From: Deltaproteobacteria bacterium
Lineage (GTDB): Bacteria; Desulfobacterota; Syntrophia; Syntrophales; UBA2185
Direction of reading: 5' to 3'
Length of the DNA: 39,722 nucleotides
NCBI GenBank assembly: GCA_026388545.1
Contig: JAPLJS010000073.1
Span: 1 to 39,722 of the forward strand
A model generated the notes under the pieces. That model was not told the origin of the DNA. It saw only the letters and a list, made by a program, of their open reading frames with translations, and ran no database searches. Both the position numbers and the translations under genes were made by a program. Below, one piece after another: positions 4,242-29,010 of this stretch. Every line of letters begins with the position of its first letter. Positions within the stretch are counted from its first letter, which is position 1.

Positions 4242-5111
4242 CTACACTTTCCCCGCCGACTTTGCTTCGGTTAAATAACCCATTATTCGATAAACTAACT
4301 TCGCAGAAAGGAAGTCAGGGGCAACCATTCCAGGAATGGGTGAAAGCTCAACAACATCAAAGCCCCGTACCCTGCATCGCTTTGACACCTGCCTTACAAG
4401 ACGGAGAAGATCCTTCCAGTAAATGCCGCCCGGCTCAGGGGTACCGGTTGCAGGCATAATAGAAGGATCAAGAACATCAAGGTCAATCGTGATATAGACA
4501 TCACCGCTTAGTTTTTCGCAAATTGTTTGCCACCAATTATGTTCTTCAAGGATATAATCCGCTGAAAATGTCTTTACCTTGCCTTCATTCATAAAAACGG
4601 CTTCTTCCGCACTCATGCTCCTGATACCCGCCTGAACGAGAGGACATAACTCAGATATGCGACGGCCGACTGATGCATGGCTATAAGGACTGCATTGATA
4701 ATAATCCCTCAGATCTGCATGGGCATCAAGTTGAAGCACCGATATATCAGGATATTTCTCTTTCATCGCCTGAACGACACCAAATGATACACTATGCTCC
4801 CCGCCGAGAATAACCGGAATTTTATCGAACGAAAGGACTTCAGCGATTGCATTATGTATAACATTCGCCATCTCACCCGGCCCCCGCGCATCAGAATCGA
4901 GGAAAGGCAGCGTATAGATGCCGGCAAGATACGTCTCTTTGCAGAGCTCTTCATCGTAAAGCTCCATATGACTGGAGGCATCAAGTATGGCGTGCGGCCC
5001 CCTCCTTGACCCGGACTGATACGTTGACGTCAGGTCATAAGGAATGGGCACAACGACGAATGTCGCCTCTTCATACGTTGGAAATGCAGGATCAACTCCC
5101 CCGAAATTCAT
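4242..5111 (-). CDS. speB: Agmatinase-family ureohydrolase
   Basis: 289 residues, normal for the arginase/agmatinase family. All metal-binding motifs are present: GGEHS with His106, DAHADLRD with Asp129, His131 and Asp133, SHAS with His145, and DLDVLDPS with Asp210 and Asp212. The family hydrolyses guanidino compounds to urea using two Mn ions; agmatinase makes putrescine from agmatine. The start MNFGGVDP and overall length fit bacterial SpeB better than arginase, but the substrate cannot be fixed from sequence. No arginine decarboxylase or spermidine synthase gene is next to it. The upstream gap to lpxH holds inverted CCTTGAACC-type repeats. Confidence 0.85.
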   Translation of the reverse strand: MNFGGVDPAFPTYEEATFVVVPIPYDLTSTYQSGSRRGPHAILDASSHMELYDEELCKETYLAGIYTLPFLDSDARGPGEMANVIHNAIAEVLSFDKIPVILGGEHSVSFGVVQAMKEKYPDISVLQLDAHADLRDYYQCSPYSHASVGRRISELCPLVQAGIRSMSAEEAVFMNEGKVKTFSADYILEEHNWWQTICEKLSGDVYITIDLDVLDPSIMPATGTPEPGGIYWKDLLRLVRQVSKRCRVRGFDVVELSPIPGMVAPDFLSAKLVYRIMGYLTEAKSAGKV

Positions 5112-23605: not shown

Positions 23606-23852
23606 ATGCGGAAAAAAGAACTCTATCTCGTGTGCCTTGCGGTTTTTCCCTTTATGATATGCACAGGCATCGTTTATTCCATTATATCCATCTATATGGC
23701 TGAAATCGGCTTAACCAAAAGCCAGATCGGTTTTCTCTACACCTCCGGCGCCACGGCCGGCGCGATAAGTTCCCCTTTTGCAGGAACCATTGCCGACCTT
23801 CGGCCTTACCCTTGCGTTTTTTTTCGTCCCTGTAAAAACAAGGCAATTGTGA
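23606..23852 (+). pseudogene. MFS transporter remnant with internal deletion
   Basis: The first 65 residues read as the start of a major facilitator permease: an N-terminal helix, EIGLTKSQIGFLYTSGATAGAISSPFAG, then GTIAD at the loop between helices 2 and 3. There the frame loses sense (PYPCVFFRPCKNK). In the next frame from 23802, GLTLAFFFVPVKTRQL followed by TGA at 23850 looks like the last helix and tail of an MFS protein. About ten helices are missing, so the two ends seem joined by a large out-of-frame deletion. The start still has a good AAAGGA site. The original reading frame continues to 23929, but that part is unlike a protein. Confidence 0.65.
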
Positions 23853-23982
23853 GGTATTTGGTTTTATTTGTATTTATTGTATCATTGACTTACCGGTATC
23901 ATTGCTCTTATAGTTATATTAAGAAATGAAAAGAGATTTCAAAGGCAATTTTCGTGATAAGTACTTTAAGTGGCATACAGCC

Positions 23983-25224
23983 ATGATTACACGCCGTGAG
24001 TTTTTAACAACATTAGCAAGATTTGCACCGATACTTGGCGGCGCCGGCATAATTCTGTCCGATCCCTTCTGGCAGAGGTTGTTGACGGGCGATGATTCGG
24101 GTCTCGCCTTCGCCGCTTATTCTATCGACGAAATCGTTCGGTCAGCTCCCCGTGCACGTTACTGGACTTCGCCCACGTCTGCCGGCGCCAATTGTTTCGC
24201 ATGCCACAGCAACCAGGCCGGCATTCAAGGCAAGCGTTACGTTCATAAGGAAAACATTGTTAAATGCCTCCTGTGCGCCCATAATTGTGTCATCAGAGAT
24301 GGCCAGCGGGGCAGGTGCCGCACACGCATGAACGTTAAGGGAGAACTGCGCAGTCTCGTCTATGGACGTCCTGTCTCTATCCATGTCGATCCGATCGAGA
24401 AGAAACCCTTTTATCACTTTCTTCCGGGGGCAGACGCATATACCGTGGGAACCTCAGGCTGTCCGTTTCAGTGCAAGTTTTGCCAAAACTGGGAACTCTC
24501 ACAGTCCTGGCCGGAGGATTACCATGTTCCGTTTACACCACCCGACAAACTCGTCAAATCTGTAGTATCCCGCAGGGCCCGTGTCATCGCCTTCAGCTAC
24601 AATGAACCGACGGTCTATACGGAATACCTGACCGATATTGCCCGGGATGCGAAAAAGCAGGGACTTCGTTCAGTTTTGATAAGCTGCGGATTCATGAATG
24701 AGGTGCCGTTAGCCGAAATGTGCAAGGTGCTGGATGCCATCAAGATTGACCTTAAGGGGTATAGTGACAATTTTTATCGTACAGTAAGCAACGCGGAACT
24801 GCGACCTGTGCTCAGAAGTATAAAACAGATAGCCAAGAGCCGCACCCATCTCGAAATCGTGAACTTAGTGGTTCCCACTTTGAACGATTCCGATAAGCTG
24901 TTGCGGGGATTAATAAGCTGGATTCTGGGAGAAGTCGGTCCCGATGTCCCCGTTCACTTCAGCCGTTTTCATCCGGACTACCAAATGCTCAATCTCCCTC
25001 CCACGCCTATTGCCACGCTGGAACGCGCGCGTGACATGGCCCTCAGTAGAGGAATTCATTATCCATATGTGGGCAATGTACCAAGTCATCCGGGCAATCA
25101 CACCTACTGCCCGAACTGTAAAAAAGTAGTGATACAACGGCATGGTTTTTTTATCACGGAGATGAACATAAAGGGTGGACGCTGTAAATTCTGCAAACGG
25201 AAAATCGCCGGTGTATGGACTTAG
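23983..25224 (+). CDS. amrS: AmmeMemoRadiSam system radical SAM protein AmrS, Tat-type N-terminus
   Basis: 413 residues from the ATG chosen so that the Tat motif lies at the N-terminus; an earlier ATG at 23926 is possible. Positions here count from 23983. The N-terminus MITRREFLTTLARFAPILGG has the twin-arginine motif and a hydrophobic stretch. Next come CFACH (71-75), KCLLCAHNC, and the family core YGRPVSIHVDPIEKKPFYHFLPG. The radical SAM cluster motif is Cys160-Cys164-Cys167 in GCPFQCKFCQNW. The C-terminus has two CxxC pairs (YCPNC and CKFC), like a zinc ribbon. The reaction of the AmrS/AmrB/AmrA trio is not known to me. The gene is followed after 16 bases by the AmrB-AmrA fusion. Confidence 0.88.
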   Translation: MITRREFLTTLARFAPILGGAGIILSDPFWQRLLTGDDSGLAFAAYSIDEIVRSAPRARYWTSPTSAGANCFACHSNQAGIQGKRYVHKENIVKCLLCAHNCVIRDGQRGRCRTRMNVKGELRSLVYGRPVSIHVDPIEKKPFYHFLPGADAYTVGTSGCPFQCKFCQNWELSQSWPEDYHVPFTPPDKLVKSVVSRRARVIAFSYNEPTVYTEYLTDIARDAKKQGLRSVLISCGFMNEVPLAEMCKVLDAIKIDLKGYSDNFYRTVSNAELRPVLRSIKQIAKSRTHLEIVNLVVPTLNDSDKLLRGLISWILGEVGPDVPVHFSRFHPDYQMLNLPPTPIATLERARDMALSRGIHYPYVGNVPSHPGNHTYCPNCKKVVIQRHGFFITEMNIKGGRCKFCKRKIAGVWT

Positions 25225-25240
25225 AAAGAGGTGCCTAAAA

Positions 25241-26776
25241 ATGAAAATACTACGATTGTTTCTTATAGTGATTGTCATCGGTCTTGGATTTGCCGTAGCG
25301 TGTCAGGCGACAAAAGCGCCTGACGCCGATATCCGCGAACCGGCAGTCGCAGGAAAGTTCTATACTGACTCCGCACCCAGACTGAAACTTGCTATCGAGA
25401 AATTCCTTCAGGATGCAGTCCCGGTCAAAGTTAAAAATCCCATCGCTATTATCGTTCCCCATGCCGGCTACATCTTCTCCGGCCAGATTTGCGCCGACGG
25501 GTTCAGGCAGGTCAGCAATCAGCAGTTTGATGTGGTCGTCATCCTGGGAACGAACCATACAAGTCCGAGTTTTGATAAAATTTCACTTTATCCCGGAGGG
25601 GGATTCCGCACCCCTCTTGGAACGGCGATGATTGACAGAGACGTTGTCTCCTCACTTGTAAAAGCAGATCCCGATTGCACACTGGATAAATCGCCGCATG
25701 AGTATGAGCATTCCGTTGAAGTCATTGTGCCGTTCGTACAGGTTCTCTTTCCCAAGGCAAAAATTGTCCCAGCGGTTGTTGGCTCGCCGGATGTGCAAAT
25801 GTGCGCCCGTTTCGGCCAAACCCTTGCAAAGGTTTTGAAAAACAGGCGGGCTCTTATCGTCGCCAGTTCCGACCTCTCCCACTACCCTGAAGCAGAAGCT
25901 GCATCAGCCGTGGATAAGGAAACTCTTGAAGCCGTTACAAAATTAGAGCCGGCCGTTCTTCACTCAACCATACAGTCCCAAATGGATCGGCGCATTCCTC
26001 AACTCTCCACCAGTGCCTGTGGAGAAGCCCCCATCATGGCTGCAATGGCGGCCGCCAGGTCTTTGGGGGCCACCCGTGGGGTAGTTGTCAGCTATGCCAA
26101 TTCGGGAGATGTGTCTATCGGTGAGCGTTCTCGGGTTGTCGGATATGGCGCTGTCGTACTGACTGCGGAAGAGGACGGGAAAGGCACAGGCGGAACAAAT
26201 GAACCATCATCGACTCCGGCATCCAACTCGCTTCGGTCTACCGACAAAAAGGCATTACTTGCCTTTGCCAGGGAAACCATATCCCGAATCCTTTCGACCG
26301 ATACGGTTCCTCTTGCCAGGGGTTTCGATCCGAATCTGCAACAGCATCGAGGGGTTTTTGTCACCCTCAAAAAAAAGGGTGAGCTCCGCGGCTGCATCGG
26401 CCGGATCATCGGAGACGAACCTCTCTGCAAGCTCGTCGGGACCATGGCGATTCAGGCAGCGCTGAATGATAGACGGTTCAGCCCTCTATCTGCCGATGAA
26501 CTCAATGATATCGACATTGAAATATCCGTACTGACGCCCATGAAACAGGTCTCCGGCGTCGCGGATATTGTTGTCGGGCGGGATGGCGTTTTACTCAGTA
26601 AAGAGGGACGTTCGGCGGTTTTCCTTCCCCAAGTGGCCACAGAACAGGGGTGGACCCGTGAAGAAATGCTTGATAACCTCTGCCGCAAGGCAGGGTTGAA
26701 TACGGGATGCTGGAAAAAGGGATCTCAATTTTCAACCTTTCAGGCCGTTGCATTCAGCGAAGCTGACTTTAAATAA
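25241..26776 (+). CDS. AmrB (MEMO)-AmrA (AMMECR1) fusion, lipoprotein-like
   Basis: 511 residues from the ATG at 25241, chosen because GAGGTG lies seven bases upstream and a signal peptide follows. The N-terminus MKILRLFLIVIVIGLGFAVAC ends at a Cys (21) that could be lipidated. The MEMO-like domain (about 30-310) has the metal or active-site set VPHAGYIFSG (His74), GTNHT, EHSVEVIVPF and a Cys in STSACGEAP. A linker rich in Gly and Ser leads to the AMMECR1 domain (about 330-511) with the signature LRGCIG and FSPLSADEL. Separate amrA and amrB genes are the more usual layout. The signal peptide suggests the fusion lies outside the cytoplasm, as does the Tat-type AmrS next to it. Confidence 0.88.
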   Translation: MKILRLFLIVIVIGLGFAVACQATKAPDADIREPAVAGKFYTDSAPRLKLAIEKFLQDAVPVKVKNPIAIIVPHAGYIFSGQICADGFRQVSNQQFDVVVILGTNHTSPSFDKISLYPGGGFRTPLGTAMIDRDVVSSLVKADPDCTLDKSPHEYEHSVEVIVPFVQVLFPKAKIVPAVVGSPDVQMCARFGQTLAKVLKNRRALIVASSDLSHYPEAEAASAVDKETLEAVTKLEPAVLHSTIQSQMDRRIPQLSTSACGEAPIMAAMAAARSLGATRGVVVSYANSGDVSIGERSRVVGYGAVVLTAEEDGKGTGGTNEPSSTPASNSLRSTDKKALLAFARETISRILSTDTVPLARGFDPNLQQHRGVFVTLKKKGELRGCIGRIIGDEPLCKLVGTMAIQAALNDRRFSPLSADELNDIDIEISVLTPMKQVSGVADIVVGRDGVLLSKEGRSAVFLPQVATEQGWTREEMLDNLCRKAGLNTGCWKKGSQFSTFQAVAFSEADFK

Positions 26777-26781
26777 CGCTC

Positions 26782-29010
26782 ATGATCATCTCACTCCTTT
26801 CCATCGGGCTGATTTCAATTCTGGGGCAGGTTGTACTGCTTCGGGAATTGAACGTTTCCTTCTATGGGATTGAGCTGATTTACCTCTTTGCCCTCGGCAT
26901 CTGGCTATTCTGGACAGCCTTGGGCGCACTTGTCGGCCGCCGGAATCATTTTCCGTCATACAACCACATTGCCTTACTTTTTATCATCTTCGGAATCACC
27001 CTTCCGCTTGACGTTATGTTCATTCGCGCCAGCCGCCTCCTCTTCGGCGGTGTACCCGGTGCATACCTTTCCTTTCTTCAGCAATTAACGGTTACCGTCA
27101 TTTCCCTTCTCCCTGCGGGGTTGTTGTCCGGTCTTTTATTCCAGTGGGCTGCAAAGATATATGTGGCAAACGGCCGGACACTGGCTATTGCCTACGCCAT
27201 CGAAAGTGCAGGTGGATTAGTGGGGGGGTTGTTTGCAACCCTCTTCCTCACATGGGGAATTCAGAATTGCGCCATTGCATTTCTGTGCGGCATTATTTCA
27301 GTCATCACACCCTTAAACATCATTAGAAAACACCCCTACCCCTCCCTCCCCCATCAAGGGGGAGGAGGGATACGGGGAGGGGGCTATTTTCGCAGTCATG
27401 GCAGGTTTCTTTTGCGCTGGACCGCACTATTTCTGGTTCTTATTTTTCTGGTGTTTCTCTGGCAGGCATCGCCGATTGACCGGCGAATGACCTCCTGGAA
27501 TCATCCGAACCTCCTTGAAAGCAAAGATTCTCCGTACGGCAGAATTACCGTGACCCGGCTTTATAATCAAATCTCGGTTTTTGAAAATGACGCCCTGGCA
27601 TTTGAGACTGAAGGAACCGAAGCGGAATACTTCTGCCATCTGTCAGCCCTCCAGCATCCGAATCCACAGCATATCCTGATCTTGGGCGGAGGAATTGAAG
27701 GGATTGTCCGGGAAATGGCAAAGCATAAACCGGCAAGAATCGACTATGTCGAACTCAACCCGACCATGCTGGATCTGGTTACGCGGCATTTATCCGATGA
27801 CATTCAGAAATCACTCAGGGATCCCAATGTCCACCTCACGCTTACAGACCCCCGACGGTTTCTTAAGGACAGCGCCACATACGACCTCATCCTGGTCGGC
27901 ATGCCGGAACCGGTATCGGGACAGGCAAACCGTTTCTACACGCGGGAATTCTTCGAACAGTGCGCGGCAAAACTTAATCCCGGAGGCATTCTCGGCTTCA
28001 GGCTCCGCTCCGCCGAAAATCTCTGGACACCGCCGTTGACCCGCCGCACCGTGAGTATCTACCGCGCTTTGGAATCGGTTTTTCCTTATGTCATGTTTCT
28101 CCCGGGAACAACAAACATTGTCACCGCTTCCCGTGAGCCTCTCCCTAGCAAACCGGAAATCATGTCCTATAGGTTTCAGGACAAGAAAATTGCAGCACAA
28201 TTGATCTCACCGAATTTCATCAGATACCTCTTTACCAACGACCGGTTTGTCGAGATCAGAAATTTACTGAAGCATGAAACAGCGCCGCCCAACACCGATG
28301 TCAGACCGGTTTGTTACCAGTATGCCTTCATGATCTGGCTATCGAAGTTCTTCCCCCACATTGCTCTCATCGATTTTTCTTCGCTCATTGATAAAGGCGA
28401 AACGAAACCGCCATTACCATTGCTATTATGGATCACCCTCCCTCTCATTTTTCTGCTCTCCCGCTTCCTTCCAGCCTGCCGCCGTGTTTTGCTCGTTGCC
28501 GTCGCGGGATTTCTGGGGATGGTTCTGGAAACGATCCTCATTCTTTATTACCAGGTCAAACATGGAGTACTCTATCAGGATATAGGGCTGTTGCTCACGA
28601 GCTTCATGGCAGGGCTTGCTCTGGGCGCAATGATCATTAGTACAATGATGGCCCGGTTTGCCGATAAGCATAGACTGGTGAGATGGTACGGCGTTGGCCT
28701 GCTTGCCGGATTTTGCCTCTTATGCGCCGTAATAACAACAAAAGTGACAATCAGCACCCCCACCGGTCTCGCACAGATTTCCTGGCTCCTCGCGGCGGCG
28801 GGCTTTTTAGTCGCCGGCATTTTCACGTACGCCAGCCTTTTTGAAATACAAGACCAAAAAGATGTAATTTCACCACTCTACTCGGCGGACCTTTTCGGAG
28901 GCTGTCTGGGTTCACTGCTTGGCAGCCTGATCTTGATACCCCTCTTAGGCATGGATGTCACAACGAAGGCGATGCTCCTCCTTTCTGTTTTTTCTCTTCT
29001 GCTGGTATAG
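26782..29010 (+). CDS. Polytopic membrane protein with spermidine-synthase-like domain
   Basis: 742 residues. Six or seven helices (1-180, with another at 211-227) are followed by a soluble methyltransferase-fold domain of the spermidine synthase type (about 245-410) and a second membrane block (about 540-742). The nucleotide site is GGGIEGIV (302-309), not GGGDG, followed by IDYVELNP. The catalytic Asp region reads VGMPEP where spermidine synthases have DSSDP, so ordinary aminopropyl transfer is doubtful. It starts five bases after the AmrB-AmrA stop and is probably in the same operon. The loop at 184-203 is encoded by a C/G palindrome. The role is unknown; it could bind or modify a polyamine-like ligand at the membrane. 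Confidence 0.82.
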   Translation: MIISLLSIGLISILGQVVLLRELNVSFYGIELIYLFALGIWLFWTALGALVGRRNHFPSYNHIALLFIIFGITLPLDVMFIRASRLLFGGVPGAYLSFLQQLTVTVISLLPAGLLSGLLFQWAAKIYVANGRTLAIAYAIESAGGLVGGLFATLFLTWGIQNCAIAFLCGIISVITPLNIIRKHPYPSLPHQGGGGIRGGGYFRSHGRFLLRWTALFLVLIFLVFLWQASPIDRRMTSWNHPNLLESKDSPYGRITVTRLYNQISVFENDALAFETEGTEAEYFCHLSALQHPNPQHILILGGGIEGIVREMAKHKPARIDYVELNPTMLDLVTRHLSDDIQKSLRDPNVHLTLTDPRRFLKDSATYDLILVGMPEPVSGQANRFYTREFFEQCAAKLNPGGILGFRLRSAENLWTPPLTRRTVSIYRALESVFPYVMFLPGTTNIVTASREPLPSKPEIMSYRFQDKKIAAQLISPNFIRYLFTNDRFVEIRNLLKHETAPPNTDVRPVCYQYAFMIWLSKFFPHIALIDFSSLIDKGETKPPLPLLLWITLPLIFLLSRFLPACRRVLLVAVAGFLGMVLETILILYYQVKHGVLYQDIGLLLTSFMAGLALGAMIISTMMARFADKHRLVRWYGVGLLAGFCLLCAVITTKVTISTPTGLAQISWLLAAAGFLVAGIFTYASLFEIQDQKDVISPLYSADLFGGCLGSLLGSLILIPLLGMDVTTKAMLLLSVFSLLLV
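27331..27387. repeat. C/G palindrome inside a coding sequence
   Basis: CCCCTACCCCTCCCTCCCCC, loop ATCAA, then GGGGGAGGAGGGATACGGGG and more G. It belongs to the intergenic palindrome family seen at five other places in the window. It adds about 19 residues (HPYPSLPHQGGGGIRGGGY) without a frameshift, between two hydrophobic segments. Confidence 0.82.

Follow-up and report, generated by a model that had tools for sequence, protein, structure and literature searches.

AmmeMemoRadiSam is a system of three protein families, the radical S-adenosylmethionine (SAM) enzyme AmrS (TIGR04337), the MEMO1-like AmrB (TIGR04336) and the AMMECR1-like AmrA (TIGR04335). We know of no reaction assigned to this system or to its human parts, MEMO1 and AMMECR1, and a search of the literature, judged by title, found no published function for AmmeMemoRadiSam. 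Human MEMO1 is, to our knowledge, intracellular and not fused to AmrA, and no radical SAM gene accompanies it in human. The usual place of work of radical SAM enzymes is the cell interior, where the cofactor is made. Two further families combine membrane helices with a spermidine-synthase-like domain: the fused major facilitator superfamily (MFS)/spermidine synthase NF037959, with an MFS-fold bundle, and the membrane-bound polyamine aminopropyltransferase NF002956 (PRK03612), with helices before the aminopropyltransferase domain. Three adjacent genes in a stretch of 39,722 nucleotides from a Syntrophaceae-like Deltaproteobacteria bacterium (assembly GCA_026388545.1, contig JAPLJS010000073.1, positions 1 to 39,722; the window) bring these elements together. 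Judged by its domains, the trio is an AmmeMemoRadiSam system, and it very probably acts outside the cytoplasm. Its gene set, recurrence and export signals, and the fold and predicted orientation of its membrane partner, were obtained by computation. The partner, which is polytopic and contains a domain of spermidine-synthase fold, is named M here, and the M of the window is assigned to type 1. The features of the locus are the following.

23983..25224, + strand: amrS (predicted exported type), encoding a radical SAM enzyme of 413 residues; TIGR04337, 349.9 bits
23983..24114, + strand: putative twin-arginine translocation (Tat)-type signal region of AmrS, about residues 1-44, with TRREFL, FAPILGGAGIILS and AFA at 42-44
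24193..24207, + strand: CFACH, a CxxCH haem-c-like motif in AmrS, residues 71-75, between signal and enzyme core
25241..26776, + strand: amrB-amrA fusion (MEMO1-like plus AMMECR1-like), encoding 511 residues; TIGR04336 and TIGR04335
25241..25303, + strand: putative signal peptide of AmrB-AmrA, lipobox AVA-C, Cys21
26782..29010, + strand: M, a predicted 7 + 7 transmembrane MFS-fold protein of 742 residues; AlphaFold2 model
27466..28392, + strand: spermidine-synthase-fold domain of M, residues 229-537, predicted periplasmic

A preliminary description of the locus had placed three adjacent genes on the same strand, 16 and 5 bases apart, and the coordinates bear out both the spacing and the shared strand, which is the + strand. 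It had also read the products as a radical SAM protein with a twin-arginine signal, an AmrB-AmrA fusion with a signal peptide and a possible lipobox Cys, and a polytopic membrane protein with a spermidine-synthase-like domain. All these assignments held: AmrS matches TIGR04337 and starts with MITRREFL, the fusion matches TIGR04336 and TIGR04335 and carries Cys21, and in M the Pfam family PF01564 (79.6 bits, residues 280-405) falls between two hydrophobic halves; the N-termini MITRREFL and MKILRLFLIVIVIGLGFAVAC likewise agree with it. The predicted periplasmic side of the M domain, the MFS fold, the CxxCH of AmrS and the cytosolic paralogues in the source genome are additions to that description.

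The enzyme core of AmrS is typical of its family. The TIGR04337 match (cut-off 220) covers residues 89-412 and leaves the first 88 residues outside the family model; CxxxCxxC is found at residues 160-167, where it is kept in 106/106 AmrS cores, and a YNEPT motif at 206-210. In the structure model (predicted local distance difference test, pLDDT, 81.5) the closest solved fold is the pyruvate formate-lyase activating enzyme 3cb8, the best PDB match (Z 21.2, root-mean-square deviation (rmsd) 2.4, 224 residues, 21% identity); differently from AmrS, this enzyme is cytosolic, and the alignment takes in neither the N-terminal extension of AmrS nor its C-terminal CxxC pairs. AmrB-AmrA scores 258.6 bits with TIGR04336 (cut-off 26, residues 32-306) and 179.2 bits with TIGR04335 (cut-off 99, residues 338-505). 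Thus all three AmmeMemoRadiSam proteins are above cut-off, with the radical SAM cluster motif and the MEMO metal ligands kept. AmrB has the same domain as human MEMO1, whose iron ligands are H49, H81 and C244 (PMC11081632); these correspond to H74, H106 and C260 of AmrB, which are invariant.

What distinguishes the trio from the described AmmeMemoRadiSam system is a Tat signal extension on AmrS, a signal peptide on the fused AmrB-AmrA and a constant partner with MFS and spermidine-synthase folds. Tat and signal-peptide calls are based here on consensus rules, the Tat-like rule having been devised in this analysis, and topology on a charge rule combined with the structure model. AmrS begins with MITRREFL, followed by 13 uncharged residues, FAPILGGAGIILS (14-26), and by AFA at 42-44; a Tat-substrate motif (S/T-R-R-x-F-L-K-like plus an uncharged stretch) is therefore present, and it is conserved in homologues. 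Among the 28 AmrS proteins that share the N-terminal extension, RR is found in 27 and KR in the remaining one, and 26/28 pass the Tat-like rule, against a background of 56/594 open reading frames of >=250 residues in 79 fetched loci, most of the 56 being radical SAM proteins of the same kind; the signal on AmrS thus exceeds chance. RR is also found in 42/42 distinct AmrS sequences taken from additional genomes of the class. In cytosolic AmrS proteins, whether of the source genome or of others, only a short stretch precedes the core, and the rule is not passed. A TatC is encoded in the source genome (contig C55, 12494-13129, E 3.1e-75), and TatC was detected in 15 of the 18 genomes tested. AmrS is consequently predicted to be a Tat-exported substrate.

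In the window, the AmrB-AmrA signal ends with the lipobox FAVA-C, with Cys at residue 21. By inspection, a lipobox Cys is present in 12/19 aligned homologues and a signal-peptidase-I type site in 7/19, a pattern suggesting that export is conserved rather than one particular sequence. Constant export with a switching signal type is stronger evidence than a single conserved stretch would be. The N-termini of AmrS and AmrB-AmrA could also be uncleaved anchors, with both enzymes membrane-attached, cytosolic and working at the inner face. There SAM and electrons are available, and the problem of supply outside would be avoided; moreover, the divergent AmrS of locus L050 has a plain N-terminal hydrophobic segment in place of RR. 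Such an arrangement appears improbable, since RR followed by Ala-x-Ala-like sites and the alternation of lipobox and signal-peptidase-I sites are features of export, the M domain is predicted to lie outside, and the CxxCH of AmrS, if it bears haem, needs the periplasm.

This CxxCH, located between signal and core, is found in 19/28 relatives and in 18/42 class sequences. It may indicate that AmrS carries c-type haem in addition to its radical SAM cluster and that this haem passes electrons to the cluster, the module being devoted to periplasmic redox or c-type haem chemistry, such as the maturation or repair of a cytochrome or a metal site. The cytochrome c maturation family PF01578, which would favour this reading, was found in 28/28 genomes; being present in all of them, it is not discriminating, and a haem link through these genes was rejected as evidence. 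The motif is lost in the whole Smithella-side clade, which has the same trio and whose genomes do contain PF01578; in addition, the stretch is modelled at low confidence and, from general knowledge, haem c on a folded protein exported by Tat would be unusual. A role in haem chemistry is thus very improbable.

The third gene product, M, was modelled with a pLDDT of 84 and a predicted template modelling score (pTM) of 0.83, giving seven helices, a soluble domain (229-537) and seven more helices; the model confirms the count of transmembrane helices (TM). Its membrane part resembles SV2A (Z 26.7), FLVCR2 (Z 24.8) and PepTSo (Z 22.3) over 336-352 residues with rmsd 3.6-4.0 in whole-chain comparisons, matches drawn from a list dominated by aminopropyltransferases, so that other membrane folds may also fit. 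No Pfam MFS match was obtained on M by sequence. M is accordingly described as a predicted MFS-fold protein with two extra helices. Lysine plus arginine residues number 10-25 in the even loops and 3-7 in the odd loops in 32/32 homologues, which by the positive-inside rule implies an N-terminus on the cytoplasmic side and a soluble domain on the outer one. The fold gives M the same orientation, since the N-terminus of MFS proteins faces the cytoplasm. TM7 and TM8 are predicted, in effect, to raise the domain to the periplasmic side. The invariant polar residues of type 1 M, which include Q16, R21, E22, E31, W41, R82, Y138, E141, Y590, Q591, Y700 and D703, sit in TM1, 2, 3, 4, 5, 9 and 13, with none in TM7 or TM8, and most of them are also kept in the other types. 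Their position in the core helices would fit a transporter rather than a plain anchor, and is suggestive only as to transport activity.

The Tat-like N-terminus of AmrS, the two signal types of AmrB-AmrA and the orientation of the M domain thus agree in pointing outward. The reading that brings all of these signals together is a location outside the cytoplasm, which, judging from sequence features, we consider highly likely; the earlier proposal that the trio acts there gains support from the conserved signals, from the predicted periplasmic position of the M domain and from the presence of TatC.

The soluble domain of M has an aminopropyltransferase fold, as it superposes on 3anx with Z 29.4 (273 residues, rmsd 2.4). 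Adenosine is taken here to be contacted, in spermidine synthases, by the VEL[N/D] Glu and the D[P/G]R Asp. In an alignment to solved aminopropyltransferases these adenosine-site positions are mostly kept across M proteins, as E324 and D356 in the M of the window. The catalytic Asp, the first D of DxxDP, is instead replaced: Gly occupies this position in the window and nearly throughout type 1, with Ala as the alternative, while the other M types mostly have Asp or Asn. An adenosyl-binding role is therefore favoured and ordinary spermidine synthesis disfavoured. M also falls below the NCBIfam spermidine synthase cut-offs. With NF037959 (cut-off 40) it shares the MFS-fold bundle and the spermidine-synthase-fold domain, and type 2 M proteins are above the cut-off (55.0, 49.6 and 42.1 bits); the M of the window differs in scoring 20.5 bits, in having a GMPEP catalytic loop instead of DxxDP and in its genetic link to exported AmrS. 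With NF002956 it reaches 98.4 bits, far under the cut-off of 472, and differs by a second seven-helix bundle after the domain and by the loss of the catalytic Asp.

M might also be an enzyme of an extracytoplasmic module, the domain transferring an aminopropyl, aminocarboxypropyl or methyl group to the same substrate on which AmrS acts and the MFS bundle serving as an anchor or moving the substrate. The fold of the domain would suit this role, as would the DLPDP that many M proteins of the other types keep at the catalytic loop. The Gly or Ala that type 1, the window included, has at the first Asp, together with the spermidine synthase cut-offs that are not reached, speaks against it, and we regard it as rather unlikely. 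Within the M gene, in frame and in a low-confidence cytosolic loop, there is also a near-palindromic element, CCTCCCCCATCAAGGGGGAGG (27345-27365 of the window). The source genome has nine copies or variants of it, whereas the reversed control does not occur there; the L010 orthologue of M contains a related stretch, and the other orthologues are without it.

The trio recurs well beyond the window. The genes are adjacent in 20 other fetched loci, labelled as Syntrophaceae, Smithella, Desulfobacterales, Calditrichota, Latescibacterota and Acidobacteriota, although many of the genomes are metagenome bins whose labels may be wrong (that of L050, for example). Among 155 genomes of the class, 51 have a high-scoring AmrS, 55 have M and 60 have AmrB-AmrA; the whole set is present in 46, and adjacent within 3 kb in 34. 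The genome search proposed in the preliminary description thus found the three genes side by side repeatedly, across several phyla and, within the class, in 34 genomes. The AmrS-M table over the 155 genomes is 48/3/7/97, with a Fisher p of 1e-28 that overstates independence because the genomes are related, and the number of genomes should not be read as a number of independent events. Several exceptions to co-occurrence come from incomplete genomes or from the ends of contigs. Where AmrS lacks an adjacent M (L022, L024, L026, L028 and L064), M is found elsewhere in 5/5 genomes. Type 2 M lies within about 1.3 kb of an AmrS, on the same contig, in 15/15 genomes with type 2 matches, and RR is present in all seven fetched AmrS proteins paired with it. 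A chance neighbourhood was rejected on the basis of this co-occurrence and because, close relatives aside, the trio has no other conserved neighbour.

The surroundings of the trio were also searched for a conserved fourth gene that might betray the substrate, and none was found beside type 1 trios beyond close relatives. In other types, a second radical SAM gene with a Tat signal and DUF362 genes appear beside AmrS, in single clades only. The second radical SAM protein (L035, 6427-7560, - strand, with counterparts in L036, L038 and L040-L046) has its own Tat-like signal, adjoins exported AmrS, is mostly on the strand opposite to it and scores far under the AmrS cut-off. The DUF362 proteins, with Tat-like N-termini, are encoded just 5' of exported AmrS in Myxococcota-type loci (L047, 6655-7815, + strand; related ones in L049, L051 and L052). 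In L050 (7845-16352), from a small genome labelled Nealsonbacteria, both AmrS and AmrB-AmrA start with a plain hydrophobic segment, AmrS has no RR and M is nearby, suggesting a different route to the membrane.

The source genome also contains an ordinary cytosolic set, with which the exported one coexists: two AmrS-family proteins without signal (contigs C18 and C70; locus L137 holds a signal-less paralogue of this genome), an AmrB-AmrA pair without obvious signal peptide (C114) and an AmrB-like protein (C23). A quick tree places the AmrS proteins with RR in one group, separate from the cytosolic AmrS of the source genome, whose clade has a support of 99. Recurrence, linkage, paralogues and tree indicate a distinct subtype and not a one-off fusion. 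No publication on an exported radical SAM enzyme or on this variant was found, the search leaving aside the study of the PCAD-Memo superfamily by Burroughs et al. (J. Biol. Chem., 2019), which may mention it; with this reservation, the variant, defined by its predicted exported localisation, its fused AmrB-AmrA and its constant M partner, is apparently undescribed.

On balance, we lean towards an extracytoplasmic AmmeMemoRadiSam module with a dedicated MFS partner, whose most likely cargo would be SAM or a similar adenosyl compound. What follows is inferred, from export as such and transport by M through to the cargo, the sequence of steps and the substrate. AmrS would fold and be loaded with its [4Fe-4S] cluster in the cytoplasm before export by Tat; AmrB-AmrA would leave through Sec, in the window as a lipoprotein and in some relatives in soluble form. 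M would reside in the inner membrane, showing its putative adenosine-binding domain on the periplasmic side, and would either move SAM out to AmrS or return a by-product such as 5'-deoxyadenosine. AmrS and the MEMO-like metal site of AmrB would then modify a substrate in the periplasm or in the outer leaflet. With a transporter fold and an outer-face adenosine-binding domain, M is the obvious candidate for a SAM supplier to exported AmrS, a role that is proposed tentatively. The complete chain, in which the MFS transporter exports SAM, the periplasmic domain captures it and hands it to Tat-exported AmrS, and the latter modifies an envelope substrate with AmrB-AmrA, is doubtful as a whole.

Several points weigh against the proposed module. 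TatC was not detected in 3/18 genomes, possibly for incompleteness; three genomes (G134-G136) have AmrB-AmrA and M without a strong match to exported AmrS; and in seven genomes the fusion alone is found at high score. The ribose-site Glu is not kept in the M of L212 and L213, and the MFS likeness of M is one of shared fold, which is no proof of transport. Furthermore, we know of no established periplasmic SAM pool or low-potential electron donor outside the cytoplasm. In the loci of G135 and G136 (L210, 4577-8343, and L211, 3808-7529), as in G134, AmrB-AmrA adjoins M with no high-scoring exported AmrS, and M diverges at its nucleotide-site motifs, which would fit a loss of the partner.

Two other features of the window may be mentioned. 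Directly 5' of AmrS, positions 23606-23929 encode a 107-residue N-terminal fragment of an MFS transporter (positions 1-58 of 347 of Pfam MFS_1), probably a decayed gene. On the - strand, at 4242-5111, there is an agmatinase-like protein, judged on its sequence to be possibly involved in polyamine metabolism.

An AmmeMemoRadiSam version outside the cytoplasm would narrow the candidate substrates of the system to envelope or periplasmic molecules and would add a constant third partner to it. It also raises the questions of how an enzyme that depends on SAM and on a strong reductant works outside the cytoplasm and of whether bacteria have SAM exporters. If M does supply SAM to a periplasmic AmrS, radical SAM chemistry would extend to the extracytoplasmic space.

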